DNA of 64,000 bases from Ridgeia piscesae (Eukaryota > Annelida > Polychaeta > Sabellida > Siboglinidae). The notes under the pieces were generated by a model. It was not told the origin of the DNA and did no database searches. It worked only from the letters and a program-made list of their open reading frames with translations. The stretch spans positions 86,001-150,000 of the forward strand of contig JAODUO010000942.1 in the NCBI GenBank assembly GCA_025642075.2, in the 5' to 3' direction. Of the stretch, positions 1,469 to 38,821 are shown in pieces (position 1 is the first letter of the stretch; each line of letters opens with the position of its first letter). Made by a program: the position numbers and the translations under genes.

Positions 1469-1744
1469 CTACTGGTGGTTGGTGCTGACATGTTTTTTTA
1501 GGCTGCTTGCGTATCGATAGGCCACGCCACAAATATCACAGCGAAAGTCTCGCGCGCCCGTGTGCTTGGCGATGTGGCCACTCAGGTGCATCACCCCCAA
1601 GAACCCCTTCCCGCACAGGGGGCACCTGTAGGGGTAGTGCCCCTTGTGCATGTCCTCATGGAGCTGAAGGCCACGGGCAGTGCCGAATGTTTTAGTGCAA
1701 AGGCTGCATTTTAGCAATGGCTTCTGTGACCTGGCAGTGGCAGT
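1469..1744 (-). CDS. Gene A terminal exon A26, three C2H2 fingers
   Basis: Exon of 91 residues. The acceptor reads GGTCTGTTTCTAG and the frame opens in phase 0 as TATARSQKPLLK. Fingers: CSLC...HEDMH, CPLCGKGF...HIAKH and CDICGVAY...HVSTNH. The finger-2 helix (GVMHLSGH) is the only one in the set with His at the position where almost all others carry Asn. It is the most distal exon from the N-terminal exon, about 36 kb away. A 3-kb minisatellite begins only about 46 bp upstream of its acceptor. Probable DNA-binding C-terminus of a nuclear factor; the target is unknown. Confidence 0.85.
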   Translation of the reverse strand, partial: TATARSQKPLLKCSLCTKTFGTARGLQLHEDMHKGHYPYRCPLCGKGFLGVMHLSGHIAKHTGARDFRCDICGVAYRYASSLKKHVSTNHQ

Positions 1745-1790
1745 CTAGAAACAGACCAAAGATCCAGTGTTAGACCTCACGCATAACAAC

Positions 1791-4787
1791 CCCTCACTGC
1801 CACCCCATGAACACTAGACCACCCTCACTGGCCACTACCACCCCATGAACACTAGACCACCCTCACTGGCCACTACCACCCCATGAACACTAAACCACCC
1901 TCACTCGCCACTGCCACCCCATGAACACTAGACCACCCTCACTGGCAACTACCACCCCATGAACACGATACCACCCTCACTGGCCACTACCATCCCATGA
2001 ACACTAGACCACCCTCACTCGCCACTACCACCCCATGAACACTAGACCACCCTCACTGGTCACTACCACCCCATGAACACTAGACCACCCTCACTGGCCA
2101 CTAACACCCCATGAACACTAGACCACCCTCACTGGCCACAACCACCCCATGAACACTAGACCACCCTCACTGGCCACAACCACCCCATGAACACTAGACC
2201 ACCCTCACTGGCCACTACCACCCCATGAACACTAGACCACCCTCACTGGCCACTACCACCCCATGAAAACTAGACCACCCTCACTGGCCACTACCACCCC
2301 ATGAACACTAGACCACCCTCACTGCCACTACCACCCCATGAACACTAGACCACCCTCACTGGCCACTACCACCCCATGAACACTAGACCACCCTCACTGG
2401 CCACTACCACCCCATGAACACTAGACCACCCTCACTGGCCACTACCACCCCATGAACACTAGACCACCCTCACTGACCACTATCACCCCATGAACACTAG
2501 ACCACCCTCACTTGCCACTACCACCCCATGAACACTAGACCACCCTCACTGGCCACTAACACCCCATGAACACTAGACCACCCTCACTGGCCACTACCAC
2601 CCCATGAACACTAGACCACCCTCACTGGCCACTACCACCCCATGAACACTAGACCACCCTCACTGGCCACTACCATCCCATGAACACTAGACCACCCTCA
2701 CTGGCCCACTACCACCCCATGAACACTAAACCACCCTCACTCGCCACTGCCACCCCATGAACACTAGACCACCCTCACTCGCCACTACCACCCCATGAAC
2801 ACTAGACCACCCTCACTGGTCACTACCACCCCATGAACACTAGACCACCCTCACTGGCCACTAACACCCCATGAACACTAGACCACCCTCACTGGCCACT
2901 AACACCCCATGAACACTAGACCACCCTCACTGGCCACTACCACCCCATGAACACTAGACCACCCTCACTGGCCACTACCACCCCATGAACACTAGACCAC
3001 CCTCACTGGCCACTAACACCCCATGAACACTAGACCACCCTCACTGGCCACTACCACCCCATGAACACTAACCACCCTCACTGGCCACTACCACCCCATG
3101 AACACTAAACCACCCTCACTGGCCACTACCACCCCATGAACACTATACCACCCTCACTGGCCACTACCACCCCATGAACACTAGACCACCCTCACTGGCC
3201 ACTACCACCCCATGAACACTAGACCACCCTCACTGGCCACTACCACCCCATGAACACTATACCACCCTCACTGGCCACTACCACCCCATGAACACTAGAC
3301 CACCCTCACTGGCCACTACCACCCCATGAACACTATACCACCCTCACTGGCCACTACCACCCCATGAACACTAGACCACCCTCACTGGCCACTACCACCC
3401 CATGAACACTAGACCACCCTCACTGGCCACTACCACCCCATGAACACTAGACCACCCTCACTGGCCACTACCACCCCATGAACACTAGACCACCCTCACT
3501 GGCCACTACCACCCCATGAACACTAGACCACCCTCACTGGCCACTACCACCCCATGAAACTAGACCACCCTCACTGGCCACTACCACCCCATGAACACTA
3601 GACCACCCTCACTGGCCACTACCACCCCATGAACACTAAACCACCCTCACTGGCCACTACCACCCCATGAACACTATACCACCCTCACTGGCCACTAACA
3701 CCCCATGAACACTAGACCACCCTCACTGGCCACTACCACCCCATGAACACTAGACCACCCTCACTGGCCACTACCACCCCATGAACACTAGACCACCCTC
3801 ACTGGCCACTACCACCCCATGAACACTAGACCACCCTCACTCGCCACTGCCACCCCATGAACACTAGACCACCCTCACTGGCCACTGCAACACCATGAAC
3901 ACTATACCACCCCATGAACACTATACCACCCTCACTAGTCACTACCACCCCATGAACACTAGACCACCCTCACTGGCAACTACCACCCCATGAACACTAT
4001 ACCACCCTCACTGGCCCACTACCACCCCATGAACACTAGACCACCCTCACTGGCCACTGCAACACCATGAACACTATACCACCCTCACTGGCCCACTACC
4101 ACCCCATGAACACTATACCACCCTCACTGGCCCACTACCACCCCATGAACACTAGACCACCCTCACTGGCCCACTACCACCCCATGAACACTAGACCACC
4201 CTCACTGGCCCACTACCACCCCATGAACACTAGACTACCCTCACTGGCCCACTACCACCCCATGAACATTATACCACCCTCACTGGCCACTACCACCCCG
4301 TGAACACTAGACCACCTTCACTGGCCACTACCACCCCATGAACACTAGACCACCCTCACTGGCCCACTACCACCCCATGAACACTAGACCACCCTCACTG
4401 GCCCACTACCACCCCATGAACACTAGACCACCCTCACTGGCCCACTACCACCCCATGAACACTAGACCACCCTTACTGGCCCACTACCACCCCATGAACA
4501 CTAGACCACCCTCACTACCACTACCACCCCATGAACCCTAGACCACCCTCACTGGCCCACTACCACCCCATGAAGACTAGACCACCCTCACTGGCCCACT
4601 ACCACCCCATGAACACTAGACCACCCTCACTGGCCCACTACCACCCCATGAACACTAGACCACCCTTACTGGCCCACTACCACCCCATGAACACTAGACC
4701 ACCCTCACTACCCCACTACCACCCCATGAACACTAGACCACCCTCACTACCCCACTACCACCCCATGAACACTAGACCACCCTCTCT
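1791..4787. repeat. 38/39-bp minisatellite, roughly 78 copies
   Basis: Tandem unit beginning CCCCATGAACACTAGACCAC and ending with CTCACTGGCCACTACCA. Point variants (CTATACC, CTAAACC, TCGCC, AACACC) recur in blocks, which suggests segmental duplication inside the array. Most units are 38 bp. From about 4067 onward a 39-bp form (GGCCC) dominates, which gives open frames of a 13-residue repeat (MNTRPPSLAHYHP) on the plus strand. These frames have no start context or splice support and are rejected as genes. Ragged copies continue to about 4960. The array sits in the gene A intron just upstream of exon A26. Confidence 0.97.
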
Positions 4788-6284: not shown

Positions 6285-6611
6285 CTAGCAGTTGTGAGTC
6301 AGTCTCATGTGTTTGCGCAGCATGCGTGCATATGTGTACTCCGCACCACAGTGGCAACATTTGAACTCGCGAACACCGGTGTGTCTCACCAGATGGCCGC
6401 GTAGGTTCGTCTGACTTGAGAACCCCTTGCTGCAGTACTGACACTGGTAGGGGTACACACCCTGGTGCATGTCCTCGTGTACCTTCAGACCCCAAGAACT
6501 CGCAAACGCGCGACTGCAATGACGACAAGACAAGGACCTCTTTGTCCTGCTCGTGTGAGACGTCTGGCTAGGTGCTGTGGCACAAGGCTCTATAAACTCA
6601 GTGTGGCCCGT
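6285..6611 (-). CDS. Gene A terminal exon A25, three C2H2 fingers
   Basis: Exon of 108 residues. Acceptor GTGTATTTCCAG; phase 0 opening TGHTEFIEPCATAPSQ. A Ser/Thr-rich leader precedes the fingers CRHCSRAF...HEDMH, CQYCSKGF...HLVRH and CCHCGAEY...HMRLTH. The finger-2 helix is SQTNLRGH. The finger 1-2 linker is QGVYPYQ and the finger 2-3 linker is TGVREFK, both close to the canonical TGEKP-type linker. No ATG is needed because the frame is open through the acceptor. Confidence 0.87.
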   Translation of the reverse strand, partial: TGHTEFIEPCATAPSQTSHTSRTKRSLSCRHCSRAFASSWGLKVHEDMHQGVYPYQCQYCSKGFSSQTNLRGHLVRHTGVREFKCCHCGAEYTYARMLRKHMRLTHNC

Positions 6612-10200: not shown

Positions 10201-11120
10201 TGTAGTACAGACTTAGCACTGCCCAACGTCTCAACTGTTGTAGTACAGGCTTAGCACTGCCCAACGTGTCAACTGTTGTAGTACTGGCAACCAGCAAGAC
10301 AGACTTAGCACTGCCCAACGTGTCAACTGTTGTAGTACAGGCTTAGCACTGCCCAACGTGTCAACTGTTGTAGTACTGGCAACCAGCAAGACAGACTTAG
10401 CACTGCCCAACGTGTCAACTGTTGTAGTACTGGCAACCAGCAAGACAGACTTAGCACTGCCCAACGTGTCAACTGTTGTAGTACAGGCTTAGCACTGCCC
10501 AACGTGTCAACTGTTGTAGTACTGGCAACCAGCAAGACAGACTTAGCACTGCCCAACGTGTCAACTGTTGTAGTACTGGCAACCAGCAAGACAGGCTTAG
10601 CACTGCCCAACGTCTCAACTGTTGTAGTACTGGCAACCAGCAAGACAGGCTTAGCACTGCCCAACGTGTCAACTGTTGTAGTACAGACTTAGCACTGCCC
10701 AAGGTCTCAACTGTTGTAGTACAGGCTTAGCACTGCCCAACGTGTCAACTGTTGTAGTACAGACTTAGCACTGCCCAAGGTCTCAACTGTTGTAGTACAG
10801 GCTTAGCACTGCCCAACGTGTCAACTGTTGTAGTACAGACTTAGCACTGCCCAAGGTCTCAACTGTTGTAGTACAGACTTAGCACTGCCCAAGGTCTCAA
10901 CTGTTGTAGTACAGACTTAGCACTGCCCAAGGTCTCAACTGTTGTAGTACTGGCAACCAACAAGACAGACTTAGCACTGCCCAAGGTCTCAACTGTTGTA
11001 GTACAGGCTTAGCACTGCCCAACGTCTCAACTGTTGTAGTACAGACTTAGCACTGCCCAAGGTCTCAACTGTTGTAGTACAGACTTAGCACTGCCCAAGG
11101 TCTCAACTGTTGTAGTACTG
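7210..11120. repeat. 38-bp and 54-bp minisatellite, about 100 copies
   Basis: Basic unit is 38 bp, starting ACAGGCTTAGCACTGCCCAA and ending CAACTGTTGTAGT. A 54-bp version adds a block ending ACTGGCAACCAGCAAG and is concentrated near 8215-8520 and 9990-10650. Copies at 7216-8040 and 9940-11120 are nearly identical, while 8040-9940 is full of 1-4 base deletions. The left end is at about 7210. The right end runs into the coding 3' end of exon A24. The minus-strand open frames (VLLVASTTTVDTLGSAK type) are repeat artefacts. Confidence 0.97.
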
Positions 11121-11411
11121 GCAACTGAATGACTTTGTGTGGCGCTTCAAGTCTCCAAGTGAGCTGAACGCCTTTGAACACTGCCCACACACAAACTCCC
11201 GCATGCCCGTGTGCTTAGTGAGATGTCGCCTCAGGTTCGTAGTTGACGGGAATCCCAGCATGCAGTACTGGCAGTGGTACCGATACTCGCCGCGATGCTG
11301 GTCTTCGTGGGATCGCAAACCACTACTCGTGCTAAATGACTTGCCACATTTGTGACACTTTTTACGTTTAGTCGGCTGTCGTACCTCAGACACACCTGGC
11401 TCACGCAACGC
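11103..11411 (-). CDS. Gene A terminal exon A24, three C2H2-like fingers
   Basis: Exon of 102 residues. Acceptor CATTTTGTCTTACAG; phase 0 opening ALREPGVSEVRQPTKRKK. Fingers CHKCGKSF...HEDQH, CQYCMLGF...HLTKH and CGQCSKAF...LKRHTKSFSC. Finger 3 has lost the standard second His spacing (H-x5-C). The final residues CQYYNS and the stop are encoded by the first unit of the adjoining minisatellite, so the 3' end of the coding region and the repeat share ancestry. The 3' UTR would have to run through the 3.9-kb repeat to the first AATAAA on the minus strand (7170-7175). Confidence 0.83.
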   Translation of the reverse strand, partial: ALREPGVSEVRQPTKRKKCHKCGKSFSTSSGLRSHEDQHRGEYRYHCQYCMLGFPSTTNLRRHLTKHTGMREFVCGQCSKAFSSLGDLKRHTKSFSCQYYNS

Positions 11412-12329: not shown

Positions 12330-12620
12330 TCACAATGAATGTTGTTTCATGTGTCGCTTGTAGTCGCACTGGTAGCGGTACTGCCGCCCACACATGTCAC
12401 ACTTGAACTCTGCGACCCCGGTGTGGATGGCCATGTGACCGCGCAGGTTTGACGTCGCAGGGAAACCTTTGCCGCAAATCTTGCACCAGTACGGGTAGTG
12501 CCCCCTATGTATGCCCTCGTGCATGCGCAGACCGTGTGCGCTCGAATAGGTCCTAGGACACTGCGAACACCTGTGTTTATGAGCTGCTGACACAGAGTCT
12601 GACATACGAGGTACTCTGCT
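12330..12620 (-). CDS. Gene A terminal exon A23, three C2H2 fingers
   Basis: Exon of 96 residues. Acceptor TTTGTCTTTGCAG; phase 0 opening SRVPRMSDSVSAAHKHR. Fingers CSQCPRTY...HEGIH, CKICGKGF...HMAIH and CDMCGRQY...HMKQH, all with full C2H2 spacing. The finger-2 helix ATSNLRGH resembles the A11/A13 subfamily, but the leader (RMSDSV) resembles the TATSRRSDSV group next door, so it looks intermediate between the two. The exon stops just after finger 3 (QHSL). Confidence 0.88.
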   Translation of the reverse strand, partial: SRVPRMSDSVSAAHKHRCSQCPRTYSSAHGLRMHEGIHRGHYPYWCKICGKGFPATSNLRGHMAIHTGVAEFKCDMCGRQYRYQCDYKRHMKQHSL

Positions 12621-13152: not shown

Positions 13153-13467
13153 TCACAGAGCTGACTTTCCAGCGTCTTTGTGACAGTGAGAAACGTGTCT
13201 CTTCAGACCCCAGGCACAGCTAAACGCCTGCGTGCACAGCCTGCACTTGTGGTCACGCACACCCGTGTGACTGGAGAGGTGTCGCCTAAGGCTGGTTGTA
13301 CACAGATAACCCTTGCCACAGTACTGGCAGTGGTAGGGATAGAGGCCCTGGTGGGTGGCCTCGTGCTGGCGGAGAACATATGTCCTCGCAAAGCTCCTAC
13401 CACACTGTGAACACGTGTGTTCACGAGATGCCTGGATGACAGAGTCTGACCTACGAGACGTTGCAGT
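13153..13467 (-). CDS. Gene A terminal exon A22, three C2H2 fingers
   Basis: Exon of 104 residues. Acceptor tract is TG-rich and ends TTTGTGTTTGCAG; phase 0 opening TATSRRSDSVIQASREHT. Fingers from about residue 19: CSQCGRSF...HEATH, CQYCGKGY...HLSSH and CRLCTQAF...HVSHCH. The finger-2 helix CTTSLRRH has Ser where almost all siblings have Asn. It belongs to the subfamily with a CxWxLKRH-type third finger that fills 13-22 kb, and it has a short Lys/Ala tail after finger 3. Confidence 0.9.
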   Translation of the reverse strand, partial: TATSRRSDSVIQASREHTCSQCGRSFARTYVLRQHEATHQGLYPYHCQYCGKGYLCTTSLRRHLSSHTGVRDHKCRLCTQAFSCAWGLKRHVSHCHKDAGKSAL

Positions 13468-14864: not shown

Positions 14865-15179
14865 TCACCACGTAATGTCCTTATGACAATGGCGGATGTG
14901 TCTTCCCAAGCTCCAGGGACAGCCGAAGTCCTTCACACAGAACGGACACTTGTTTTCTCGAACGCCCGTGTGCTTCGCCATGTGGCGCCTAAGGTTAGTG
15001 GTTGACAGACTACCCTTGCCACACACCTCGCAGTGGTAGGGATAGTGGCCACTGTGAATGGCCTCATGCTGGTGGAGGCCATGGGCTGTCGTATAGGTCC
15101 GACCACACTGTGCACATGTGTGTTTACGAGGTAGAGGTGACTGCAGGAACCAGCCTGCACTACTACGGCACGCTGCAGT
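14865..15179 (-). CDS. Gene A terminal exon A21, three C2H2 fingers
   Basis: Exon of 104 residues. Acceptor tract TGTGTTTGTGTTTGCAG; phase 0 opening TAACRSSAGWFLQSPLPRK. Fingers CAQCGRTY...HEAIH, CEVCGKGS...HMAKH and CPFCVKDF...HIRHCH. The finger-2 helix STTNLRRH is the consensus of the subfamily. The finger-1 helix region (TTAHGLHQH) closely resembles that of A16, which suggests a recent common origin. Confidence 0.9.
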   Translation of the reverse strand, partial: TAACRSSAGWFLQSPLPRKHTCAQCGRTYTTAHGLHQHEAIHSGHYPYHCEVCGKGSLSTTNLRRHMAKHTGVRENKCPFCVKDFGCPWSLGRHIRHCHKDITW

Positions 15180-15963: not shown

Positions 15964-16278
15964 TCAAGCTTTGTCTTGATGAAAGTTACGCATGTGCCTC
16001 TTGAGACTCCAGGGACAAGTGAACTTTTGCGAACACCATTTGCACTGGTGGTCGCGTGCGCCTGTGTGTGTCGCCAAGTGGCGTCTAAGGTTATTGGTAG
16101 AGAGGCATCCCTTGCCACAGATCTTGCACCAGAAGGGGTACTGGCCCCTGTGCGCCGCCTCGTGACGACGAAGGATGTAGACTCTCGCAAAGCTCCTACC
16201 ACATTGGAAACACGTGTGGTTAGCGGGTGGTGGGAAGACAGAGTGTGAGCCTGAGCCAGAGCTAACAGGCAGTGCAGT
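15964..16278 (-). CDS. Gene A terminal exon A20, three C2H2 fingers
   Basis: Exon of 104 residues. Acceptor GTGTTTTGTTTGCAG; phase 0 opening TALPVSSGSGSHSVFPPPAN. Fingers CFQCGRSF...HEAAH, CKICGKGC...HLATH and CSQKF preceded by CKW, closing HMRNFH. The finger-2 helix is STNNLRRH. A longer open frame reaching 16416 is intron read-through; the shared phase-0 acceptor is preferred because every sibling uses it. Confidence 0.9.
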   Translation of the reverse strand, partial: TALPVSSGSGSHSVFPPPANHTCFQCGRSFARVYILRRHEAAHRGQYPFWCKICGKGCLSTNNLRRHLATHTGARDHQCKWCSQKFTCPWSLKRHMRNFHQDKA

Positions 16279-17127: not shown

Positions 17128-17439
17128 TCAGTCAGTGACATCTTGCCGCCGATGAATGTGAAGAACATGTCTCTTCAAATTCCAAGCACAGGTGAACACT
17201 TGCATACACCACTTGCACTTGTAAGCACGGACACCGGCATGTGCCAGCATGTGCCGTTTAAGGTTACTGGAGGACAGACAGCCTTTCCCACAGATCTCAC
17301 ACCAGTACGGGTAGTCGCCGCGGTGGGCCGCCTCGTGCACCTGCAGGAACTGCATTCCCGAGAACTTCTTACCACACTGCGAACACGTGTGTCTACGAGA
17401 TGCCTGGACGACAGAGCCCGAGCTACCGAATGCTGCAGT
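17128..17439 (-). CDS. Gene A terminal exon A19, three C2H2 fingers
   Basis: Exon of 103 residues. Acceptor TGTGTTTGTGTTTGCAG; phase 0 opening TAAFGSSGSVVQASRRHT. Fingers CSQCGKKF...HEAAH, CEICGKGC...HMLAH and CKWCMQVF...HVLHIH, with an acidic/basic tail RRQDVTD. The finger-2 helix is SSSNLKRH. Only 101 bp separates its acceptor from the stop of A18, the tightest spacing in the locus. Confidence 0.9.
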   Translation of the reverse strand, partial: TAAFGSSGSVVQASRRHTCSQCGKKFSGMQFLQVHEAAHRGDYPYWCEICGKGCLSSSNLKRHMLAHAGVRAYKCKWCMQVFTCAWNLKRHVLHIHRRQDVTD

Positions 17440-17540: not shown

Positions 17541-17867
17541 CTACACAAGTCGATGTCCTCCCGCTGGTACACTGTCTGCGTGACAGTTTTCAATGTGCCT
17601 CCTCAGGCTCGAGATATAACGGAACGTCCGAATACACAGATGGCATTTGTGGTCAACCCTGCCCGTGTGCACGGCCATGTGCCGTTTAAGATTGCTCGTG
17701 TTGAGACTGCCCTTGCCACAGACCTCACACCGGTACGGGTAGCAGCCTTTGTGCGCAGCCTCGTGCAGATGCAGGAAGTGGAGTCGGGAAAAGCTGCTAC
17801 CGCACTGTGAGCACGTGTGTCTACTGGCTGACCGTTTGACAGAGCCTGACCTATGGGACGAGGCACT
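17541..17867 (-). CDS. Gene A terminal exon A18, three C2H2 fingers
   Basis: Exon of 108 residues. Acceptor TGTGTTTGTGTTTGCAG; phase 0 opening SASSHRSGSVKRSASRHT. Fingers CSQCGSSF...HEAAH, CEVCGKGS...HMAVH and CHLCIRTF...HIENCH, then the tail ADSVPAGGHRLV. The finger 2-3 linker is TGRVDHK rather than TGVRxxK, a small order change. The finger-2 helix is NTSNLKRH. Together with A19 it looks like a local duplicate. Confidence 0.9.
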   Translation of the reverse strand, partial: SASSHRSGSVKRSASRHTCSQCGSSFSRLHFLHLHEAAHKGCYPYRCEVCGKGSLNTSNLKRHMAVHTGRVDHKCHLCIRTFRYISSLRRHIENCHADSVPAGGHRLV

Positions 17868-18411: not shown

Positions 18412-18717
18412 TCAATCAGGTTGCTGTTTATGAATGAGCCGAAAATGTCTCTTCAGACTCCACGAGCACGTGTAGGCTTGCATACACAACGTGCACTTGT
18501 AGTCCCGTGTGCCTGCGTGGGTTGCCAGGTGGCGCCTATAGTTACTGGTCGACACAATACCCTGACCACAGATCTCGCAGCGGTACGGGTAGCGGCCACT
18601 GTGGATGGGTTCATGCAGGCGGAGACAGTGTGCGCTCGAAAAGCTCCGACCACACAGCGAACAACTGTGATTACGAGACGACGCGGCGCAAGAGTCTGAC
18701 CTACGAGGTGTTGCAGT
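18412..18717 (-). CDS. Gene A terminal exon A17, three C2H2 fingers
   Basis: Exon of 101 residues. Acceptor GTGTTTGTGTTTGCAG; phase 0 opening TATPRRSDSCAASSRNHS. Fingers CSLCGRSF...HEPIH, CEICGQGI...HLATH and CTLCMQAY...HFRLIH, tail KQQPD. The finger-2 helix STSNYRRH has Tyr in place of the usual core Leu, which could weaken packing or be tolerated. The leader is nearly identical to that of A22. Confidence 0.9.
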   Translation of the reverse strand, partial: TATPRRSDSCAASSRNHSCSLCGRSFSSAHCLRLHEPIHSGRYPYRCEICGQGIVSTSNYRRHLATHAGTRDYKCTLCMQAYTCSWSLKRHFRLIHKQQPD

Positions 18718-21472: not shown

Positions 21473-22144
21473 TCAAACACGTTCCCTGTGTAGAAGAGTA
21501 ACGTGTCTTTTGAGATCCCACGAACAGCTGAACTCTTTCGAGCAAAACGTGCACTTGTAGTCACGCACACCCGTGTGCTTTGCCAAGTGCCGCCTAAGGT
21601 TGGTAGTGGAGAGACTGCCCTTGCCACAGAAGTGACAGTGGTAGGGGTAATGGCCTCGGTGCAGGTTCTCGTGCAGCTCTAGGCCACACATCGTGGAGAA
21701 GTGTTTGTCACAGCTCGAACATTTCAAGTGTTTCCTGCAGCCTTGCCTGCGTGGCTGCCTGGCTGCTACAGCAAGCTGAGTAGTTGGCTGCCTGGCTGCT
21801 ACAGCAAGCTGAGTAGTTGGCTGCCTGGCTGCTACAGCAAGCTGAGTAGTTGGCTGCCTGGCTGCTACAGCAAGCTGAGTAGTTGGCTGCCTGGCTGCTA
21901 CAGCAAGCTGAGTAGTTGGCTGCCTGGCTGCTACAGCAAGCTGAGTAGTTGGCTGCCTGGCTGCTACAGCAAGCTGAGTAGTTGGCTGCCTGGCTGCTAC
22001 AGCAAGCTGAGTAGTTGGCTGCCTGGCTGCTACAGCAAGCTGAGTAGTTGGCTGCCTGGCTGCTACAGCAAGCTGAGTAGTTGGCTGCCTGGCTGCTACA
22101 GCAAGCCGAGTAGAAGGCTGCCACAATGCTTGTGGAAGTAGTGC
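21473..22144 (-). CDS. Gene A terminal exon A15, coding minisatellite plus three C2H2 fingers
   Basis: Exon of 223 residues, twice the size of its siblings. Acceptor GGCTGTTTTCTTCCAG; phase 0 opening ALLPQALWQP. It continues into eleven copies of an 11-residue repeat (TTQLAVAARQP, first copy STRLAVAARQP), then RRQGCRKHLK and the fingers CSSCDKHF...HENLH, CHFCGKGS...HLAKH and CTFCSKEF...HVTLLH, tail RERV. The repeat is Gln/Ala/Arg-rich and may form a spacer between the shared N-terminus and the fingers. Without it the exon would match sibling length. The repeat DNA is almost free of substitutions, so expansion is recent or homogenised. Confidence 0.87.
   Translation of the reverse strand, partial: ALLPQALWQPSTRLAVAARQPTTQLAVAARQPTTQLAVAARQPTTQLAVAARQPTTQLAVAARQPTTQLAVAARQPTTQLAVAARQPTTQLAVAARQPTTQLAVAARQPTTQLAVAARQPTTQLAVAARQPRRQGCRKHLKCSSCDKHFSTMCGLELHENLHRGHYPYHCHFCGKGSLSTTNLRRHLAKHTGVRDYKCTFCSKEFSCSWDLKRHVTLLHRERV
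21755..22117 (-). repeat. 33-bp coding minisatellite, 11 copies
   Basis: Tandem 33-bp units (plus-strand unit CTGCCTGGCTGCTACAGCAA then GCTGAGTAGTTGG) entirely inside exon A15. Because 33 is divisible by 3 and the unit lacks stops, copy-number change keeps frame; the plus strand and another minus frame also stay open as shadows. Only the leftmost and rightmost copies differ, as expected for unequal crossing over or slippage. Confidence 0.95.
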
Positions 22145-23109: not shown

Positions 23110-23461
23110 CTGCAAGTAAGCAAGAAGAGACTGCATCATTTGTCCAATTCGCTGGCGGCTCCTGTGCTTATTACTCAAGTCCTGCAGCACGTGAGATGTC
23201 CACTCCTAGGAACCACTTTCCTGTGTCTACTCACTAGCTCCAAGACACCCTTCACCAACCCCTAACACATACATTCAATCTGACAACCTTGTTGTGGTAC
23301 CATCTTCAAAGTGCATACCCGAACTTGCTGTGAACACTTGCACAGAACAGGAAGCATTAATATGGCAACAATTACCACACCAATTACTTTACATGCAATT
23401 TTTTATTTGAAAACCATGTGTCAAGTGAAACTGACAATAATGACAGAATAGGCAACTCAAC

Positions 23462-23827
23462 TCACATGTTACTGTATTTTTGCACAGTTGAAACAGCTCC
23501 ATAGGATGGTTTTAATGGGCATGACCTGACATGATATTTCCAACTAGACGCATAGCTAAATTCACGAGTACAATAGGAACACTTGTACTCGTTGACGCCT
23601 GTGTGTTTTGCCATGTGTCCTTTGAGATTTGTTGTTCCCGAAAACCCCTTTCCACAGTATACGCAATGATAGCGGTAGCGCCCTCTATGCAGGTCCTCGT
23701 GCAGTCGTAGCCCGTCAATACTTGCAAAGTGTCTAACGCACACTGAACATTTGTATTTCTTATGGCTAGCTGAAACTCTCGCCGAGAGGTCTACATCCTG
23801 CCCACGGACACCAGGTGCTTGACACCT
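23462..23827 (-). CDS. Gene A terminal exon A14, three fingers (cassette type a)
   Basis: Exon of 121 residues. Acceptor TTGTGTGCTTCCAG; phase 0 opening RCQAPGVRGQDVDLSARVSA. Fingers CSVCVRHF...HEDLH, CVYCGKGF...HMAKH and CSYCTREF...HVRSC. Finger 3 is C2HC-like (H-x3-C). A longer tail (PLKPSYGAVSTVQKYSNM) distinguishes it from A10 and A12, which stop at RSCH. AATAAA lies about 55 bp past the stop (plus TTTATT 23402-23407). It is one of three type-a exons that alternate with type-b exons. Confidence 0.88.
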   Translation of the reverse strand, partial: RCQAPGVRGQDVDLSARVSASHKKYKCSVCVRHFASIDGLRLHEDLHRGRYRYHCVYCGKGFSGTTNLKGHMAKHTGVNEYKCSYCTREFSYASSWKYHVRSCPLKPSYGAVSTVQKYSNM

Positions 23828-23982: not shown

Positions 23983-24342
23983 TTATAGTATGGGATTAAC
24001 CTGCTGACACACCGACAAGTGACGTCGATAATCTCCTTCATATCGGATTTGGCGTCCACACTTAGCACACTTGAACTTGATAACACCAGTGTGGACCGAC
24101 ATATGTCCACGCAAGTTACTTGTGGCAGCAAAGCCCTTGCCACAGAACTCACAGTGGTAACGATATCTTCCTAGGTGGCCATCCTCATGCATTTTCAGAC
24201 CCGATAACGTTGTGAACCGCTTAGAGCAATGGCTGCAGCGATACTGAGACTTAACCAGAGAACTGGGGGCATCCTGAGGGATTACTGTAGGTGGGCCAGT
24301 GGCAGTGAGAGCTCTATCCACCAATGGTGCAAGACCAGACAT
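23983..24342 (-). CDS. Gene A terminal exon A13, three fingers (cassette type b)
   Basis: Exon of 119 residues. Acceptor TTGTTTACTTGCAG; phase 0 opening MSGLAPLVDRALTATGPPTV. Fingers CSHCSKRF...HEDGH, CEFCGKGF...HMSVH and CAKCGRQI...HLSVC (H-x3-C, C2HC-like). The finger-2 to C-terminal part is identical by eye to A11 except for the last residues (NPIL against NPKL), while the leader differs more, a sign of recent duplication or conversion. The AATAAA present after A11 is altered here (CTCTATTG on the plus strand). Confidence 0.88.
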   Translation of the reverse strand: MSGLAPLVDRALTATGPPTVIPQDAPSSLVKSQYRCSHCSKRFTTLSGLKMHEDGHLGRYRYHCEFCGKGFAATSNLRGHMSVHTGVIKFKCAKCGRQIRYEGDYRRHLSVCQQVNPIL

Positions 24343-24656: not shown

Positions 24657-24971
24657 CTAATGGCATGACCGGATATGATTTTTTAAACTCATAAAATGGC
24701 TAAATTCACGGTCACAGTGTGAACACTTGTACTCGTTGACACCCGTGTGTTTCGACAAGTGTCCTCTAAGATTCGTTGTTCCCGAAAACCCCTTTCCACA
24801 GTATTCGCAATGATAGCGGTAGCGCCCTCTATGTAAGTCTTCATGCAGTCGTAGCCCAAATGCAGTTGCAAAGTGCTTAGTACACAGAGAACATCTGTGT
24901 TTCTTATGGCTAGCTGACACTTTTGTTGAGAGGTCTACAGCCTGCCCATGGACACCAGGTGCTTGACACAG
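24657..24971 (-). CDS. Gene A terminal exon A12, three fingers (cassette type a)
   Basis: Exon of 104 residues. Acceptor GTGTGCTTCCAG; phase 0 opening LCQAPGVHGQAVDLSTKVSA. Fingers CSLCTKHF...HEDLH, CEYCGKGF...HLSKH and CSHCDREF...HIRSCH. The finger-2 helix is GTTNLRGH. It ends right at finger 3. Differences from A10 cluster in finger 1 and the finger-3 helix (SHFMSLKN against RYFSSLKN). Confidence 0.88.
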   Translation of the reverse strand: MCQAPGVHGQAVDLSTKVSASHKKHRCSLCTKHFATAFGLRLHEDLHRGRYRYHCEYCGKGFSGTTNLRGHLSKHTGVNEYKCSHCDREFSHFMSLKNHIRSCH

Positions 24972-25526: not shown

Positions 25527-25874
25527 TTATAGTTTGGGATTAACTTGCTGACACACCGACAAGTGACGTCGATAATCTCCTTCATATCGGATTTGGCGTC
25601 CACACTTAGCACACTTGAACTTGATAACACCAGTGTGGACCGACATATGTCCACGCAAGTTACTTGTGGCAGCAAAGCCCTTGCCACAGAACTCACAGTG
25701 GTAGCGATATCGTCCTAGGTGGCGATCCTCATGCAATTTCACACCCGATAACGTTGTGAACCCCTTAGAGCAATGTCTGCAGCAGTAGCGAGACTTAACC
25801 ACAGAACTGGGGGCATCCCGAGTGATTAGTGCAGCAGTGACAGCTCTGGCCACCAATGCTGCCTGACCAGGCAT
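25527..25874 (-). CDS. Gene A terminal exon A11, three fingers (cassette type b)
   Basis: Exon of 115 residues. Acceptor GTTTACTTGCAG; phase 0 opening MPGQAALVARAVTAALITRD. Fingers CRHCSKGF...HEDRH, CEFCGKGF...HMSVH and CAKCGRQI...HLSVC. Finger 1 differs from A13 at several sites, fingers 2 and 3 do not. An ATG happens to open the exon, but siblings lack it and the acceptor is strong, so it is not taken as a start. Confidence 0.88.
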   Translation of the reverse strand: MPGQAALVARAVTAALITRDAPSSVVKSRYCCRHCSKGFTTLSGVKLHEDRHLGRYRYHCEFCGKGFAATSNLRGHMSVHTGVIKFKCAKCGRQIRYEGDYRRHLSVCQQVNPKL

Positions 25875-26182: not shown

Positions 26183-26497
26183 TTAATGGCATGATCGGGC
26201 GTGATTTTTCAAACTACTAAAATAGCGGAATTCACGGCCACAGTGTGAACACTTGAACTCGTTGACACCCGTGTGTTTCGCCAAGTGTCCTCTAAGATTC
26301 GTTGTTCCCGAAAATCCCTTTCCACAGATTTCGCAATGATAGCGGTAGCACCCTCTATGTAAGTTCTCATGCAGTCGTAACCCAACCATAGTCGCAAAGA
26401 GTTTAGGGCAGAGAGAACATTTGTATTTCTTATCGCTAGCAGACACTTGTGTCGAGAGGTCTACAGCCTGCCAATGGACACCAGGTGCTTGACACCT
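26183..26497 (-). CDS. Gene A terminal exon A10, three fingers (cassette type a)
   Basis: Exon of 104 residues. Acceptor GTGTGCTTCCAG; phase 0 opening RCQAPGVHWQAVDLSTQVSA. Fingers CSLCPKLF...HENLH, CEICGKGF...HLAKH and CSHCGREF...HARSCH. The finger-2 helix is GTTNLRGH. It is the cassette exon nearest the N-terminal exon, and the leader shows that A10, A12 and A14 come from one ancestor. Confidence 0.88.
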   Translation of the reverse strand, partial: RCQAPGVHWQAVDLSTQVSASDKKYKCSLCPKLFATMVGLRLHENLHRGCYRYHCEICGKGFSGTTNLRGHLAKHTGVNEFKCSHCGREFRYFSSLKNHARSCH

Positions 26498-27200: not shown

Positions 27201-27518
27201 TCACATGAAATTTGGTGGCGTGGCCCCGGCATGGTGCGCCTCCACGTGCCGTCGCAGCTGGCGTGCGTAGCGGAACTCGTGGCCGCAAAACGAACAAGGG
27301 AACTCCTTGATGCCCGTGTGCTGCACGAGATGGCCCCGCAAGTTTGTGCTGCCCGAGAAGCCCTTGCCGCAGAAGCGACACTTGTAGCGGTAGCGACCTT
27401 TGTGCAGGTCCTCGTGCAGCCGCAGCCCATTGCGGCTGACAAAGTGCCTACTGCAAACAGAGCAGACATGTTGGCGGACAGCGCCACTGCCCCGCGGCCA
27501 GCCCACTGCTGCTGCCCC
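27201..27518 (-). CDS. Gene A terminal exon A9, three C2H2 fingers
   Basis: Exon of 105 residues. Acceptor TGCTTGTTGTTACAG; phase 0 opening GAAAVGWPRGSGAVRQ. Fingers CSVCSRHF...HEDLH, CRFCGKGF...HLVQH and CSFCGHEF...HVEAHH, tail AGATPPNFM. The finger-2 helix is GSTNLRGH. The exon is much more GC-rich than its neighbours, which keeps long shadow frames open on both strands (for example minus 27053-27736). The finger frame is chosen for its motifs and phase. The GC content hints at a different history from the flanking exons, or codon bias. Confidence 0.88.
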   Translation of the reverse strand, partial: GAAAVGWPRGSGAVRQHVCSVCSRHFVSRNGLRLHEDLHKGRYRYKCRFCGKGFSGSTNLRGHLVQHTGIKEFPCSFCGHEFRYARQLRRHVEAHHAGATPPNFM

Positions 27519-28126: not shown

Positions 28127-28450
28127 CTAAGTGTGGCATGTTTTGCCGATTCTCTGGTGTCTTCGCAGATCTTTTGCATATCTGAACGCCCGTTTACAGA
28201 CGTCACACTTAAACTCCTTCACGCCAGTGTGCACCACTAGATGTCCTCGCAAATTGCTGTTGCCAGAGAAGCCACGACCACAATATGGACAAGTGTAGGG
28301 GTAAATACCCCGATGTAACCCTTCATGCAGCAATAGACCACGAGCAGTACGACACGACTTGTTGCAAATTGAACATCGATTGTGGACACGCTCCGTTGCC
28401 GCAGTCAAAGTGGCTTTCCCACTTTGCTTTGTAACGTTTTGATGCCATGT
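28127..28450 (-). CDS. Gene A terminal exon A8, three zinc fingers
   Basis: Exon of 107 residues. Acceptor TTTAAATATTTTCCAG; phase 0 opening TWHQNVTKQSGKATLTAATE. Fingers CSICNKSC...HEGLH, CPYCGRGF...HLVVH and CDVCKRAF...HQRIGKTCH. The last finger has a stretched end (H-x5-C-H). The FRYAKDLRRHQ third-finger helix unites A5-A8 as a subfamily. The frame continues upstream of the acceptor to 28702 only as intron read-through. Confidence 0.87.
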   Translation of the reverse strand, partial: TWHQNVTKQSGKATLTAATERVHNRCSICNKSCRTARGLLLHEGLHRGIYPYTCPYCGRGFSGNSNLRGHLVVHTGVKEFKCDVCKRAFRYAKDLRRHQRIGKTCHT

Positions 28451-28926: not shown

Positions 28927-29262
28927 TCACTTGTAAACACGCCACCTTGTTTCAGCCTGTTGCTGGCAGCGCTTCTGGTGCAGTTTCAGGTCTTTAGCAT
29001 AGCGGAACTCCCGTTTACAGACACTGCATGAAAACTCCATAACACCGGTATGGTCCACCAGGTGGCCTCGTAGATTGCTTGATGCCAAGAAACCCTTTCC
29101 ACAATACGAACACTTGTACGGGAAGACACCGCGATGTGAGCCTTCATGAAGCTTAAACCCAAGATGGGTGGTAAATCTTTTACTGCAGAGAGTGCACTGA
29201 AAACGCTTCAAGCTTGCCCCATTTCCACACTGTGAGCTCAGTTTGGCAATCTTTGAAGTGCT
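28927..29262 (-). CDS. Gene A terminal exon A7, three zinc fingers
   Basis: Exon of 111 residues. Acceptor TTTCGTTTTGCAG; phase 0 opening STSKIAKLSSQCGNGASLK. Fingers CTLCSKRF...HEGSH, CSYCGKGF...HLVDH and CSVCKREF...HQKRC (H-x3-C). Tail QQQAETRWRVYK. The finger-2 helix is ASSNLRGH. The finger-3 helix is YAKDLKLH. Confidence 0.88.
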   Translation of the reverse strand, partial: STSKIAKLSSQCGNGASLKRFQCTLCSKRFTTHLGFKLHEGSHRGVFPYKCSYCGKGFLASSNLRGHLVDHTGVMEFSCSVCKREFRYAKDLKLHQKRCQQQAETRWRVYK

Positions 29263-29462: not shown

Positions 29463-29795
29463 CTAATTCTTTTCATTTACTGCATTCTTGCACTCTGGAT
29501 GGTCCTTCACTTTGTGGTGTTTCAAGTCTTTCGCATATCGAAATTCACGCAGACACAGGTTGCATTTAAACTCAAAAATTCCTGTGTGATGAACAAGATG
29601 CCCCTTCAGGTTGCTATGCCCAGAGAAACCTTTGCCACAGTACGGACAGCTGTACAGGTAATTGCCACTATGCAAGCGTTCATGCAGGCGCAGTCCGCAG
29701 GCACTGAACACTCTCTTCGCACAAATTGAACACTGGTAGACTTTCTTTCCTGTGCTCGGCTGGCCATCAGAGGCACGTTGTGACGTTCTGCGTGC
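29463..29795 (-). CDS. Gene A terminal exon A6, three C2H2 fingers
   Basis: Exon of 110 residues. Acceptor GTTATATTCTTGCAG; phase 0 opening ARRTSQRASDGQPSTGKK. Fingers CSICAKRV...HERLH, CPYCGKGF...HLVHH and CNLCLREF...HHKVKDH, then PECKNAVNEKN. The linker LHSGNYLYS replaces the usual GxYPY by GNYLY, shared only with A5, its nearest relative. Confidence 0.88.
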   Translation of the reverse strand, partial: ARRTSQRASDGQPSTGKKVYQCSICAKRVFSACGLRLHERLHSGNYLYSCPYCGKGFSGHSNLKGHLVHHTGIFEFKCNLCLREFRYAKDLKHHKVKDHPECKNAVNEKN

Positions 29796-30020: not shown

Positions 30021-30311
30021 CTAGTGGTCCTTTGCTTTGTGCTTTCTCAACTCCTGCGCATATCGGAACTCACGCCAACACTGATCACACTTAAACTGTC
30101 GTATTCCAGTGTGCTGCACTAAATGTCCCTGCAGATTGGTGTGTCCAGAGAATCCTTTACCACAGTATGGACACGTGTACAGATACGAGCCAAGGTGCAG
30201 GCGCTCATGCACCTTCAGGCCCCAAGATGTATGTACGGTTTTGGAGCAGAGAGAACACTGGTAGAGTTTCTTTTCACTGACTCCTTTATGGGTACTACTG
30301 CCTGCATCTCC
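30021..30311 (-). CDS. Gene A terminal exon A5, three C2H2 fingers
   Basis: Exon of 96 residues. Acceptor CATTTTACTTGCAG; phase 0 opening GDAGSSTHKGVSEKK. Fingers CSLCSKTV...HERLH, CPYCGKGF...HLVQH and CDQCWREF...HKAKDH, ending on the final His. The finger-2 helix is GHTNLQGH. First of the C2H2 block in transcript order. Confidence 0.88.
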   Translation of the reverse strand, partial: GDAGSSTHKGVSEKKLYQCSLCSKTVHTSWGLKVHERLHLGSYLYTCPYCGKGFSGHTNLQGHLVQHTGIRQFKCDQCWREFRYAQELRKHKAKDH

Positions 30312-30765: not shown

Positions 30766-31071
30766 TTAATTAAGATGTGTTCCCCATGACGTAGCATGGT
30801 TCATCTTATAACCACGTGACCAGTAATGTCTCGAGTGATAGAGGGCGTAACATGCCGGGTAACAGAGCCCCGGGTGTGCGCTGCATGTACTACAATGCAC
30901 TCTCGTTTCCTTCCTCACGCCACTGCGATAACACACTCGACAGCGTTTCGTTGGCTTGCTTTTAGCTGGCGTTGGTGGCACAAAGTCGGGCACGTGAGTT
31001 TTGCCATCAATTTCAATAACTGGTGAATCTGCTCCTGCCATGACACTGTGCAGAATGCTCCCCATTCCAAC
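30766..31071 (-). CDS. Gene A terminal exon A4, piggyBac-type cysteine-rich zinc domain
   Basis: Exon of 101 residues. Acceptor CCAAGTTTGTGTTGCAG; phase 0 opening VGMGSILHSVMAGADSPVIE. A linker (DFVPPTPAKSKPTK) leads to RCRVCYRSGVRKETRVHC, then CSTC, then CYPACYALYH. The C-x2-C ... RKxTxxxC-x2-C ... C-x3-C-x4-H arrangement is that of the C-terminal Cys-rich domain of piggyBac-family transposases, which binds terminal repeats. No DDE catalytic domain lies nearby, so this appears to be only the DNA-binding end of such a protein, spliced in place of zinc fingers. Tail SRHYWSRGYKMNHATSWGTHLN. Confidence 0.82.
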   Translation of the reverse strand, partial: VGMGSILHSVMAGADSPVIEIDGKTHVPDFVPPTPAKSKPTKRCRVCYRSGVRKETRVHCSTCSAHPGLCYPACYALYHSRHYWSRGYKMNHATSWGTHLN

Positions 31072-32121: not shown

Positions 32122-32583
32122 TCAGGAAGTAACAATCCCATGGCGGCTTTTAAAGCGTGTCAGCCATCCCGTTGTCATTTGGAAAACGTTTGGATCATAG
32201 CCTGGCTCATTTCCGTGAAGATCTTGATGGATGACCTTAGCCTGTGCAAGCAGAACTGCATTAGACACTCTATTTCCAGTGTTGACTTGGTCTAGGTACC
32301 ACTGATACACTGCCTGTTCATGAAGTATGTCTTTTGGCAGGCGCATCGTCCTGTGCTGCAACACATCAGGCGAGTGATTCTTGCTCAAGAACGATTGGAA
32401 CTTCGCTCTCATGTTCTTAATATCACTAACAGTCGATCTTGCAATGCCATATTCTTTTGCAATTCTGTACTGCTTCTCCCCGTTTTCAATACGACGGATG
32501 ATCTCAAGTTTATCATGAATTGTCAGAACCGTCTGCTTGCTCCCCCTTTCTTTAGATGTCAGCCTTGCCTGTTTATTTCGATT
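32122..32583 (-). CDS. Gene A terminal exon A3, psq HTH plus CENP-B-type HTH
   Basis: Exon of 153 residues. Acceptor GCATACGTTTCAG; phase 0 opening NRNKQARLTSKERGSK. Residues about 15-65 form a psq/CENP-B N-terminal helix-turn-helix: LTIHDKLEIIRRIENGEKQ, then YRIAKEYGIARSTVSDIK. Residues about 85-150 look like the second CENP-B-type HTH: HEQAVYQWYLDQVNTGNR, AQAKVIHQDL, GWLTRFKSRHGI. This two-HTH module is the DNA-binding half of pogo/Tigger/jerky transposases and CENP-B. The DDE domain is absent; the stop follows the second HTH. It is read as a captured DNA-binding module. Confidence 0.85.
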   Translation of the reverse strand, partial: NRNKQARLTSKERGSKQTVLTIHDKLEIIRRIENGEKQYRIAKEYGIARSTVSDIKNMRAKFQSFLSKNHSPDVLQHRTMRLPKDILHEQAVYQWYLDQVNTGNRVSNAVLLAQAKVIHQDLHGNEPGYDPNVFQMTTGWLTRFKSRHGIVTS

Positions 32584-33545: not shown

Positions 33546-34091
33546 CTATGCATCAGTGTTTCTGGGTTGCTTAGACGCAAAGTTAATCCCATGGCGTTCT
33601 TTGAAACAAGCCAACCATCCATTGGTTGCACGGAATGCCTCAGGATTGAAGTCCGGCTTGTCGTGGTGCATTTGCCAATAGATGAGTTTCGCCTTCTCAG
33701 CTAGAGCAGGTCCAGTCACATAGCTACCCTTCAGTATCTCCCCAACATACCATTCATAGACTGCTGCCTCATGGGCAACGTCCTTCGCCCCACGCAGATT
33801 CTTTCGTTTTAGCGCCGTTCTTGTGTCAAGTGTGCTCACAAACAAACGAACCCTGTCTTTCTTTTTCTTAATGTCTGCGACTGTTGATCTGCCAATTCCA
33901 TACTCCCTGGCAACTTTACCATGTGATGCTCCTTCTTCGAGGCGCTCAATAATTCTCAACTTGTCCTGAATACACAGGGCAATGCGATGTCGTTTTACCG
34001 TTCCTTCACTGCTGGAAGGTATCCCTTTTATGGGTACCATCATGTCCACAGGTGTCCTCACATCCCAGGCCCTTACACTCGACATTAGGTT
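33546..34091 (-). CDS. Gene A terminal exon A2, psq HTH plus CENP-B-type HTH
   Basis: Exon of 181 residues. Acceptor ACTTCGTACATTTCAG; phase 0 opening NLMSSVRAWDVRTPVD. A long leader is followed by KRHRIALCIQDKLRIIERL and VAREYGIGRSTVADIKKKK (first HTH, about residues 33-85), then HEAAVYEWYVGEILKGSY, AEKAKLIYWQM and NGWLACFKERHGI (second HTH, about 105-170). Same architecture as A3 with clear divergence, so the duplication is old. No catalytic DDE segment follows. An internal ATG is present but the sibling phase argues for splicing. Confidence 0.85.
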   Translation of the reverse strand, partial: NLMSSVRAWDVRTPVDMMVPIKGIPSSSEGTVKRHRIALCIQDKLRIIERLEEGASHGKVAREYGIGRSTVADIKKKKDRVRLFVSTLDTRTALKRKNLRGAKDVAHEAAVYEWYVGEILKGSYVTGPALAEKAKLIYWQMHHDKPDFNPEAFRATNGWLACFKERHGINFASKQPRNTDA

Positions 34092-34473: not shown

Positions 34474-34788
34474 CTAACTGTTATGACTGTCATCGGGCTC
34501 AGACCGAGATGGGTTATCTGGTGTAACATCTTTTGGGTTCTCTTTCAGTCTAACAGTTTTACGCCACAGTGTTTCTCGAGCATCGACCATGCTCATAAAA
34601 GACAACAATTGACTTTTATTCCTCCCTAGTTGTGTAACAGTTGATCGCCCAATCCCATAGTCATTTGCAATTCTCTGGTGGTTTTCACCATTCTCCAGAC
34701 GTTGTATGATTTGTAGTTTATCATATAATACCATCCGCTTTCGCTTGGTTCGTTGATCATAATGCGTTGTGGTAAGTGGCAAGTCACC
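34474..34788 (-). CDS. Gene A terminal exon A1, single psq-type HTH
   Basis: Exon of 104 residues, first after the N-terminal exon. Acceptor TTGCCTACATTTCAG; phase 0 opening GDLPLTTTHYDQRTKRK. One HTH is seen at about residues 14-65: MVLYDKLQIIQRLENGENH and RIANDYGIGRSTVTQLGRNK. The second CENP-B HTH of A2 and A3 is missing: after TVRLKENPKD the chain runs into a polar tail (DNPSRSEPDDSHNS) and stops. It is either a truncated copy or a minimal psq-only version. Confidence 0.8.
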   Translation of the reverse strand, partial: GDLPLTTTHYDQRTKRKRMVLYDKLQIIQRLENGENHQRIANDYGIGRSTVTQLGRNKSQLLSFMSMVDARETLWRKTVRLKENPKDVTPDNPSRSEPDDSHNS

Positions 34789-37700: not shown

Positions 37701-37800
37701 CTTGGTTTTTACTTTTAATGCAAAATGTTTGTCCAAAAACAGGATATATGTCTAACCACAGGTGTCCTTTAACATAGTCGACAATATGAAATAACCTTAC
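34789..37800. other. Gene A intron between N-terminal exon and first terminal exon
   Basis: About 3 kb, AT-rich. The donor CAG|GTAAGG is at its high-coordinate end (GT at 37799-37800). No further exon with acceptor, phase 0 and known motif was found. The open frame that continues from the N-terminal exon to 37480 is intron read-through and would add an AT-rich, Phe/Asn/Cys-rich tail, so an intron-retained isoform without a DNA-binding domain is formally possible. Confidence 0.55.
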
Positions 37801-38821
37801 CTGTGACATATGCTGGCTTTGCTGACTTGGTGTGCCCGACATTGATGCACTTGGACTTGCTGTTGTCTGAGGTAGAGAGTGCGCGCTGATTGATGGCAAC
37901 TGGTCCCACGTCGAACAACCAGGAAACACTGGTGCCGATGTGGATAACGTTAACGAGTGAGGAAGAAGGTTCGCTGCTGACGACACTATGCTGCTGATTG
38001 TATCTTGAGTCACTGTAGCAGCACCAACTGATGTTAACGTGCCACTGGTGTCCATCATACCCGTCCGATTGTAAGAATCCATTTGGCACGATAACGCATC
38101 TAAACCAGCTTCCTCTTTTATCACAACTACATCATCGTCCGATTCCGACTCTTCTTTCACCGACCGATCACCGGATTCGTCAACAGACCTTGACTTTTTT
38201 AACGGAGGCTGACGAATGTGGTCTGATGAGTCTATGCTGCGTTCTCTATGCAAAGTATCACCGCCACCTGTGGTTGAACTGCCCGTGTCGAAATCACGCA
38301 TGGCGAATGTCATTGAAGATGGTGCAGAATCACTCGAGTAACTTGTTTGCGTATCACCCATATCACCCACTGATCCGCTGTCACCATGCATTGACCTAAA
38401 CAGTTTTCGAGGCACTGGTGCACTGCTGCCATTTGGAGTTGTCACTAACTGACCATCATCCTCTGACTTGTCCAACTGTACCATAATACTCAAATCAGGT
38501 GCACTGTCCAGGCCATCTTTTATATCTTGATGTGCTGATGTCCGTGTTGCTTCTATGCGGAATTCCCTGTGATCATCTGGCGAGTCCAGGTCTTTGTCCA
38601 GACCCAGGTCGGTGCGTATCGTCTCTTTAATGCTGACCAGGAACACATCATCCTGATCAAGAGTTATGCCAATGAGCGCTTCAATGGCAAACTCTGACTG
38701 GTAGTTGAGCCCATTCTTGCACAGAAGTGTAATTGTCTCAGTTAGTAGTGCTTTCACACGCATCTGATCCGCTTTCAGTACCATGTTTTCGTCTTTTCTC
38801 TTTCCGAGGCGTTGGGTACTT
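37801..38821 (-). CDS. Gene A shared N-terminal exon
   Basis: ATG at 38784-38782; coding to 37801, 328 residues; 37 nt of 5' UTR back to an acceptor (TTTATTACAG). Residues 1-56 (MVLKADQMRVKALL to DVFLVSIKETI) form a helical-looking conserved block whose closest match in the window is gene B; I do not recognise the family, and it is not BTB. The rest is Ser/Thr/Asp-rich and probably disordered, with a basic stretch PPLKKSRSVD (likely nuclear localisation) and DDDVVVIKEEAG (IKEE, SUMO-consensus type). It ends SQQSQHMSQ at CAG|GTAAGG in phase 0, which matches every terminal exon. By analogy to lola the block may mediate self- or partner association; this is inference. Confidence 0.88.

Follow-up and report, generated by a model that had tools for sequence, protein, structure and literature searches.

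The minus strand of a 64,000-nucleotide stretch of the siboglinid annelid Ridgeia piscesae, hereafter the window, carries a locus, gene A, in which one N-terminal coding exon is followed by a long series of candidate terminal exons with DNA-binding modules (Table 1). The window corresponds to positions 86001-150000 of contig JAODUO010000942.1 (C942; 168,923 bases), in a genome assembly of 628 Mb and 4875 contigs. As proposed in a preliminary description of this stretch, the N-terminal exon closes at a predicted phase-0 donor, CAG|gtaagg, at 37801; a genome search with the domain that it encodes found no second exon of its kind on the minus strand of C942. Downstream of it in the window lie 26 candidate terminal exons: 22 with C2H2 zinc fingers (two to three each), three with a CENP-B-type helix-turn-helix (HTH), and one with a transposase-type zinc finger. 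These had been taken for the whole array, which in fact runs on to C942:27072. The minus strand of C942:1-86000 holds 22 further open reading frames (ORFs) with two to four C2H2 fingers each, bringing the contig total to 44, and a fingerless exon at the far end of the array. The candidate terminal exons of gene A number at least 49 (44 C2H2, three HTH, one zf-Tnp_2, and one winged-helix-like), and the locus spans 97,712 bases (97.7 kb) from its ATG to the end of the last exon. On the plus strand of C942, no multi-C2H2 ORF was found outside the window, and the two inside it both lie beyond the N-terminal exon of a second locus, gene B. The TIG-domain exon found at C942:10424-10987 appears to belong to the neighbouring gene.

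The modules other than C2H2 are of several kinds. CENP-B_N and HTH_Tnp_Tc5 both score above their curated cut-offs in two HTH exons, and CENP-B_N alone does so in the third; the zf-Tnp_2 exon reaches 28.9 bits against a curated cut-off of 24. This last module, a DDE_Tnp_1-type zinc finger, is one we take to be of the piggyBac kind. A Pfam scan of the HTH and zf-Tnp_2 exons matched no transposase catalytic family. The mixture of C2H2, pipsqueak/CENP-B HTH, and piggyBac modules described earlier is recovered as C2H2, CENP-B_N, HTH_Tnp_Tc5, and zf-Tnp_2, but no pipsqueak score was obtained. A genome search with the zf-Tnp_2 exon gave no other match of its kind; an HTH query found two copies with internal stops elsewhere in the genome (C163:111094 and C1055:100505, both minus strand), probably old transposase copies. 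The fingerless exon at C942:27072-27491 stands out among 1564 ORFs by matching the terminal modules of two relatives of gene A, proteins P0064 (31%, E 3e-11) and P0082 (28%, E 5e-10). By eye we read its module as winged-helix-like, with no family above cut-off.

The terminal exons largely agree in phase with the donor. With hand-chosen acceptors, all 22 C2H2 exons of the window open in phase 0 and end in their own stop, separated by stop-to-next-acceptor gaps of 102-4541 bases. An automatic test, which took the highest-scoring AG 20-200 bases ahead of the first finger and did not require an open frame, found the top AG to be in phase 0 for all but one of the 22. The exception (leaving 21 in agreement) is 22144-21473, in which an 11-residue repeat pushes the acceptor outside the scanned stretch; the repeat forms an in-frame minisatellite (21708-22144, minus strand) between acceptor and fingers. 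Over all 44 C2H2 exons the top acceptor fell in phase 0 in 38, phase 1 in two, and phase 2 in four, where one third would be expected (binomial p 5e-13, a value that is overstated because tandem copies inherit the acceptor phase). In the three HTH exons a phase-0 acceptor ending in ...TTTCAG is the best AG within the open frame, one of them having three higher-scoring AGs that all lie beyond a stop, and the best acceptor of the winged-helix-like exon is also in phase 0. Four of the five non-C2H2 exons are hence in agreement, zf-Tnp_2 being the fifth; of the phase evidence, the concordance of these four exons (HTH and winged-helix-like) is the part that is more nearly independent. The earlier statement that 26 exons open in phase 0 with their own stops therefore stands as to the count, the C2H2 exons, and the HTH exons, but less securely for the zf-Tnp_2 exon.

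The domain encoded at the start of the shared exon, about 56 residues long, had been described as something other than BTB, and the searches bear this out. No Pfam family matched the N-terminal exon of gene A, and no BTB model was present among the Pfam families matched by 74 aligned members of the domain, in which columns L13, L14, C22, L37, T41, D43, and L49 are invariant. A solved-structure search with a profile of 18 diverse copies returned nothing significant (best E 0.75) and no BTB among its matches; a likeness to RI-alpha-type docking/dimerization domains was dropped, as the best match extended over 19 residues only. The whole exon has 218 protein matches, 120 of them listed. Paralvinella palmiformis, another annelid, is the only species named among the matches listed, most of which bear no species name. 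A search widened from the single-exon paralogue P0158 gave three matches and bears little on the spread of the domain. The rest of the exon encodes a fast-evolving linker in which the motif VVxIKEE recurs, occurring in 99 of 133 domain proteins (which are not independent of one another) vs. a mean of 0.67 in shuffles. The motif, DDDVVVIKEE in gene A, may be a SUMO-interaction and SUMO-acceptor-like site.

Proteins from other sources carry the domain together with DNA-binding modules. A pattern search found both domain and C2H2 fingers in eight of the 157 proteins retrieved, while the domain is followed by FLYWCH in P0101, by a KN homeobox in P0118 (a homeobox of this type occurs in one of the 74 aligned members), and by a winged-helix-like module in P0064 and P0082. 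Many of these relatives come from short contigs tagged 'lgn', which are presumably read assemblies; an annotated gene model underlies P0129. In six pairs sharing a common N-terminal exon (78-92% identity), one member runs on into an apparent intron, and the other passes at the same residue into fingers or a winged-helix-like module. The apparent read-through occurs at Q|V, R|V, K|V, or M|V, as read from the proteins and not from DNA. These pairs suggest a splice joint between the domain exon and the DNA-binding module, and these proteins as a whole support splicing of the domain to such modules.

Genome-wide searches were made with the modules of P0056, P0046, and P0064 and with the FLYWCH module. 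The best 27 matches of the P0056 finger module in the 628 Mb are all minus-strand array exons of C942, as are the best 17 matches of the P0046 module; with a gene A finger exon as the query, the best 32 are all on the C942 minus strand. Given 4231 first-look C2H2 candidates genome-wide, the placement of these top matches on the C942 array is specific. With the winged-helix-like module of P0064 the genome is matched in two places: C942:27099, where the array finishes (E 1.2e-6), and, on the plus strand, C1590:65965 (E 0.0013), downstream of a plus-strand N-terminal exon at C1590:50663.

The C2H2 exons bear the marks of local duplication, in that exons tend to resemble their near neighbours most (mean rank distance 4.6; none of 10000 permutations gave a value as small). 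At C942:78000-85000 on the minus strand, exon kinship recurs with a period of about four (e.g., -1158/-5748, -2818/-7540, and -4376/-7997 in window numbering), which suggests duplication of a multi-exon block. A truncated exon start without fingers (22954-23205, minus strand) resembles the starts at 25874 and 24342 and is probably a relic of tandem duplication; tandem repeats with several open frames lie between terminal exons at 9955-10730 and 4040-4803. Among the 14 closest exon pairs, the ratio of nonsynonymous to synonymous substitution rates (dN/dS) was 0.05-0.69 in ten, the highest value resting on seven differences, and was not finite in four. Zinc fingers contact DNA chiefly through positions -1, 2, 3, and 6, and no two of the 37 exons that have exactly three canonical fingers share the same joint set of these residues. 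The variation is concentrated in fingers 1 and 3, with 33 distinct contact sets each vs. 17 for the middle finger, which is nearly fixed (position 3 is N in 30 exons and position 6 is G or R in 34). From this combination of a near-constant middle finger and varied outer ones, we infer that the three-finger products would recognize a common core DNA site with differing flanks.

The domain is also found beyond gene A, in at least 29 genome copies at E <0.001 on 14 contigs. Eleven of the N-terminal exon copies (L023-L033, on C613, C729, C715, C1048, C1656, and C1501) are on average 96% alike over the first 85 columns and 61% alike over the following linker part. In L035, L042, and L045, domain and fingers share one frame; L045 (C351:642369, plus strand) is a single-exon paralogue with two fingers and has relatives P0159-P0161, of which P0159 is 97% and P0160 79% identical over the part of the domain used for the search. 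In ENA-derived sequences, 30 clusters of gene A's N-terminal exon (P0003-P0032), 89-98% alike and spread over many contigs, perhaps reflect a large amplification in one relative. Finger arrays at other N-terminal loci appear uneven, judging by the off-C942 matches listed (frames of up to 223 residues, counted by eye). For the P0056 module, seven of ten such matches share a contig with an N-terminal exon; all seven lie downstream in the same orientation, 15-33 kb away, and are spread over four contigs. The corresponding counts are two of nine for P0046 (one C337 frame counted once) and none of 11 for the gene A finger exon, placement being computed for the two modules and judged by eye for that exon.

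Gene B, which lay outside the preliminary description, is a paralogous locus on the plus strand, divergently oriented to gene A, and has candidate terminal exons of its own. Its N-terminal exon comes to a stop (46741-46900, plus strand) at a place where its relatives P0114 and P0117 read on, and its frame departs from theirs near 46790, which could be an assembly slip or a real lesion. Its first candidate terminal exon resembles the winged-helix-like module when aligned, but a scored search among contig ORFs gave no link between it and the gene A exon of that type.

Table 1. Features of the gene A and gene B loci. Positions are those of the window unless prefixed with C942. For the C2H2 terminal exons of gene A in the window, the basis is a hand-chosen phase-0 acceptor and an open frame to the exon's own stop.
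Feature	Position	Strand	Basis or remark
Gene A shared N-terminal coding exon	37801..38821	-	acceptor before 38821; ATG 38784-38782; donor CAG|gtaagg, phase 0
Conserved N-terminal domain, ~56 residues (60 used as query)	38605..38784	-	no Pfam family; at least 29 genome copies; 218 protein matches with whole exon
Linker motif DDDVVVIKEE	38110..38139	-	motif recurrence in domain proteins vs. shuffles
Terminal exon, CENP-B_N HTH only, without Tc5 half	34474..34788	-	Pfam and acceptor test
Terminal exon, CENP-B_N + HTH_Tnp_Tc5	33546..34091	-	Pfam and acceptor test
Terminal exon, CENP-B_N + HTH_Tnp_Tc5	32122..32583	-	Pfam and acceptor test
Terminal exon, zf-Tnp_2 (DDE_Tnp_1-like zinc finger)	30766..31071	-	Pfam; acceptor least certain
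C2H2 terminal exon	30021..30311	-	
C2H2 terminal exon	29463..29795	-	
C2H2 terminal exon	28927..29262	-	
C2H2 terminal exon	28127..28450	-	three possible phase-0 acceptors: 28549, 28480, 28450
C2H2 terminal exon	27201..27518	-	
C2H2 terminal exon	26183..26497	-	
C2H2 terminal exon	25527..25874	-	
C2H2 terminal exon	24657..24971	-	
C2H2 terminal exon	23983..24342	-	
C2H2 terminal exon	23462..23827	-	
C2H2 terminal exon	21473..22144	-	in-frame 11-residue repeat ahead of fingers
C2H2 terminal exon	20315..20629	-	
C2H2 terminal exon	18412..18717	-	
C2H2 terminal exon	17541..17867	-	
C2H2 terminal exon	17128..17439	-	acceptor 102 bases past preceding stop codon
C2H2 terminal exon	15964..16278	-	higher-scoring phase-0 AG at 16365
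C2H2 terminal exon	14865..15179	-	
C2H2 terminal exon	13153..13467	-	
C2H2 terminal exon	12330..12620	-	
C2H2 terminal exon	11103..11411	-	
C2H2 terminal exon	6285..6611	-	
C2H2 terminal exon, last in window	1469..1744	-	
22 multi-C2H2 exons outside window	C942:85421-32033	-	
Winged-helix-like exon outside window, far end of array	C942:27491-27072	-	matches relatives' terminal module
Gene B N-terminal exon from ATG 45951, paralogous, divergent from gene A	45951..46884	+	likely donor AAC|GTATGT
Gene B candidate terminal exon, resembles winged-helix-like module	49853..50284	+	24% to gene A's in alignment
Gene B candidate terminal exon, two C2H2 fingers	52975..53364	+	acceptor 52975 or 53014
Gene B candidate terminal exon, two C2H2-like fingers	55373..55831	+	

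The organization of gene A, with its shared exon and many phase-compatible last exons on one strand, is like that of Drosophila lola, as had been recognized. In lola, a common N-terminal part is spliced, in cis or in trans, to any of numerous alternative C-terminal exons, the majority encoding zinc fingers, which gives at least 20 isoforms (PMC1947980), and mod(mdg4) is described as having a common 5′ exon and many 3′ exons, with at least 31 isoforms in Drosophila and at least 40 in Danaus, and FLYWCH in most of the variable parts (PMC4667647). Gene A likewise has one shared coding exon with a single predicted donor phase, and many phase-compatible last exons, mostly zinc finger, with their own stops and different DNA-binding modules, six C2H2 exons and the zf-Tnp_2 exon excepted when judged by the top-scoring acceptor; FLYWCH also follows its type of domain in P0101. 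However, the common parts of lola and mod(mdg4) are both described as BTB-coding (PMC1947980, PMC4667647), whereas gene A lacks an N-terminal BTB match. It further differs from lola in the number of candidate last exons and in the inclusion of HTH, transposase-type, and winged-helix-like modules, and from mod(mdg4), whose acceptors often lie on the opposite strand and are trans-spliced, in its single-strand array and in the absence of FLYWCH matches from contigs with N-terminal exons. Because the BTB test failed, gene A is not classed with these genes despite its layout. The preliminary description left the choice between an independent and a deeply diverged version; with no BTB match in 74 members and a domain of only some 56 residues, independence fits better.

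Other systems resemble parts of gene A. Arthropod TTK-type BTB proteins also pair an N-terminal domain with C2H2, HTH, or FLYWCH modules, but the domain is a different one, and they are reported to be Arthropoda-specific and absent from Annelida and Mollusca (PMC11426971). The CENP-B_N, HTH_Tnp_Tc5, and zf-Tnp_2 matches are shared with the DNA-binding domains of pogo/CENP-B-type and DDE_Tnp_1-type transposases, from which the gene A exons differ in matching no catalytic family and in being terminal exons downstream of a domain of the host. Throughout Metazoa, CENPB, HTH-Psq, and FLYWCH factors derived from transposases are on record (PMC10027918). No comparable locus outside insects was recognized in the literature searched by titles and abstract openings, with most subscription journals outside its coverage.

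We propose, with a probability of roughly 0.8, that gene A is a non-BTB counterpart, of independent origin, of lola and mod(mdg4): a single transcription-factor gene in which at least 49 last exons serve as alternatives behind one common N-terminal coding exon. The shared exon would supply the domain and the linker with its SUMO-like motif, and its donor at 37801 would be joined to one last exon, from the same pre-mRNA or, in the case of trans-splicing, from a separate one. Each last exon would contribute its own DNA-binding module and stop codon, such that the products share an N-terminal domain and differ in the DNA they read. By analogy with BTB in lola and mod(mdg4), the domain would most likely serve in self-association or cofactor binding. 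The exon menu would have grown through local tandem duplication and intake of transposase-type modules.

Several observations weigh against this proposal. A junction from 37801 to a terminal exon was seen in no transcript of Ridgeia piscesae, no single N-terminal exon was found joined to two different modules among the relatives retrieved, and P0002, a relative that is 87% identical, also seems to run on into the intron. The phase counts are not independent, since duplicates carry over their acceptor; the top acceptor is out of phase in six of the 44 C2H2 exons, C942:43168-43626 has no good phase-0 acceptor, and the phase-0 acceptor of the zf-Tnp_2 exon (31071) is outscored by two phase-2 AGs, making it the weakest exon in the window. 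None of the 15 genome matches of FLYWCH is on a contig with N-terminal exons. Poly(A) signals are not enriched, with AATAAA/ATTAAA absent within 600 bases of the stop in 21 of 44 C2H2 exons vs. 53% of random points, which slightly lowers confidence in the proposal.

Some of these observations also bear on other explanations. The terminal exons could be separate pre-mRNAs from internal promoters, joined in trans to the 5′ exon of gene A. Trans-splicing would suit the length of the locus and has been reported for mod(mdg4) (PMC4667647) and lola (PMC1947980); the lack of poly(A) enrichment agrees poorly with a cis and a trans model alike. However, all array exons found are on the strand of the N-terminal exon, so that cis-splicing suffices, and some gaps between exons are too short for obvious promoters. 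We regard trans-splicing as unlikely, if worth keeping in view. Fewer grounds exist for a cluster of independent zinc-finger genes in tandem, all with short 5′ exons of their own, that merely lies downstream of a domain gene. The thousands of C2H2 candidates in the genome, the lack of a same-species junction, and the in-frame ATG ahead of the first finger in 20 of the 44 C2H2 ORFs are what such a cluster might present, but 24 ORFs have no such ATG, phase 0 is nearly uniform, and in other proteins the domain precedes finger and winged-helix-like modules resembling these, which makes this explanation improbable.

It is about equally doubtful that the array is decaying, with few terminal exons in use and the remainder relics. 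The truncated fingerless copy, the six out-of-phase top acceptors, and the unremarkable poly(A) signals would agree with decay, but 44 multi-finger frames are open and dN/dS is below 1 in all ten close pairs for which it could be computed. The idea that the N-terminal domain derives from BTB by strong divergence or shortening, making gene A kin to lola by descent, draws on its DNA-binding partner classes (C2H2, HTH, and FLYWCH), which are those of the arthropod TTK-type BTB proteins (PMC11426971). That idea is very hard to reconcile with the Pfam and solved-structure results, with a domain about half the length of BTB (~110 residues; PMC4667647), and with the reported absence of TTK-type BTB from Annelida and Mollusca (PMC11426971).

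If gene A is one transcription-factor gene with alternative last exons, its implications extend beyond this locus. More tentatively, it may belong to a lineage-wide non-BTB transcription-factor superfamily in which 'hub' exons (at least 29 in the genome, and the 30 clusters in ENA-derived relatives) and last exons (at least 49 in gene A) expand independently of each other, and splicing within or between loci would generate a combinatorial repertoire larger than that of lola or mod(mdg4); this is possible, but we would not count it as probable. Both lola and mod(mdg4) are familiar as BTB genes of arthropods. Were their layout to have arisen independently behind a different front domain, last-exon swapping would prove a repeatable route to transcription-factor families, and an as-yet-unnamed domain would gain a family and a testable role. 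The gene A array would also serve as a natural series in which to ask what holds one finger constant amid variable neighbours and how transposase-type DNA-binding modules enter host genes.

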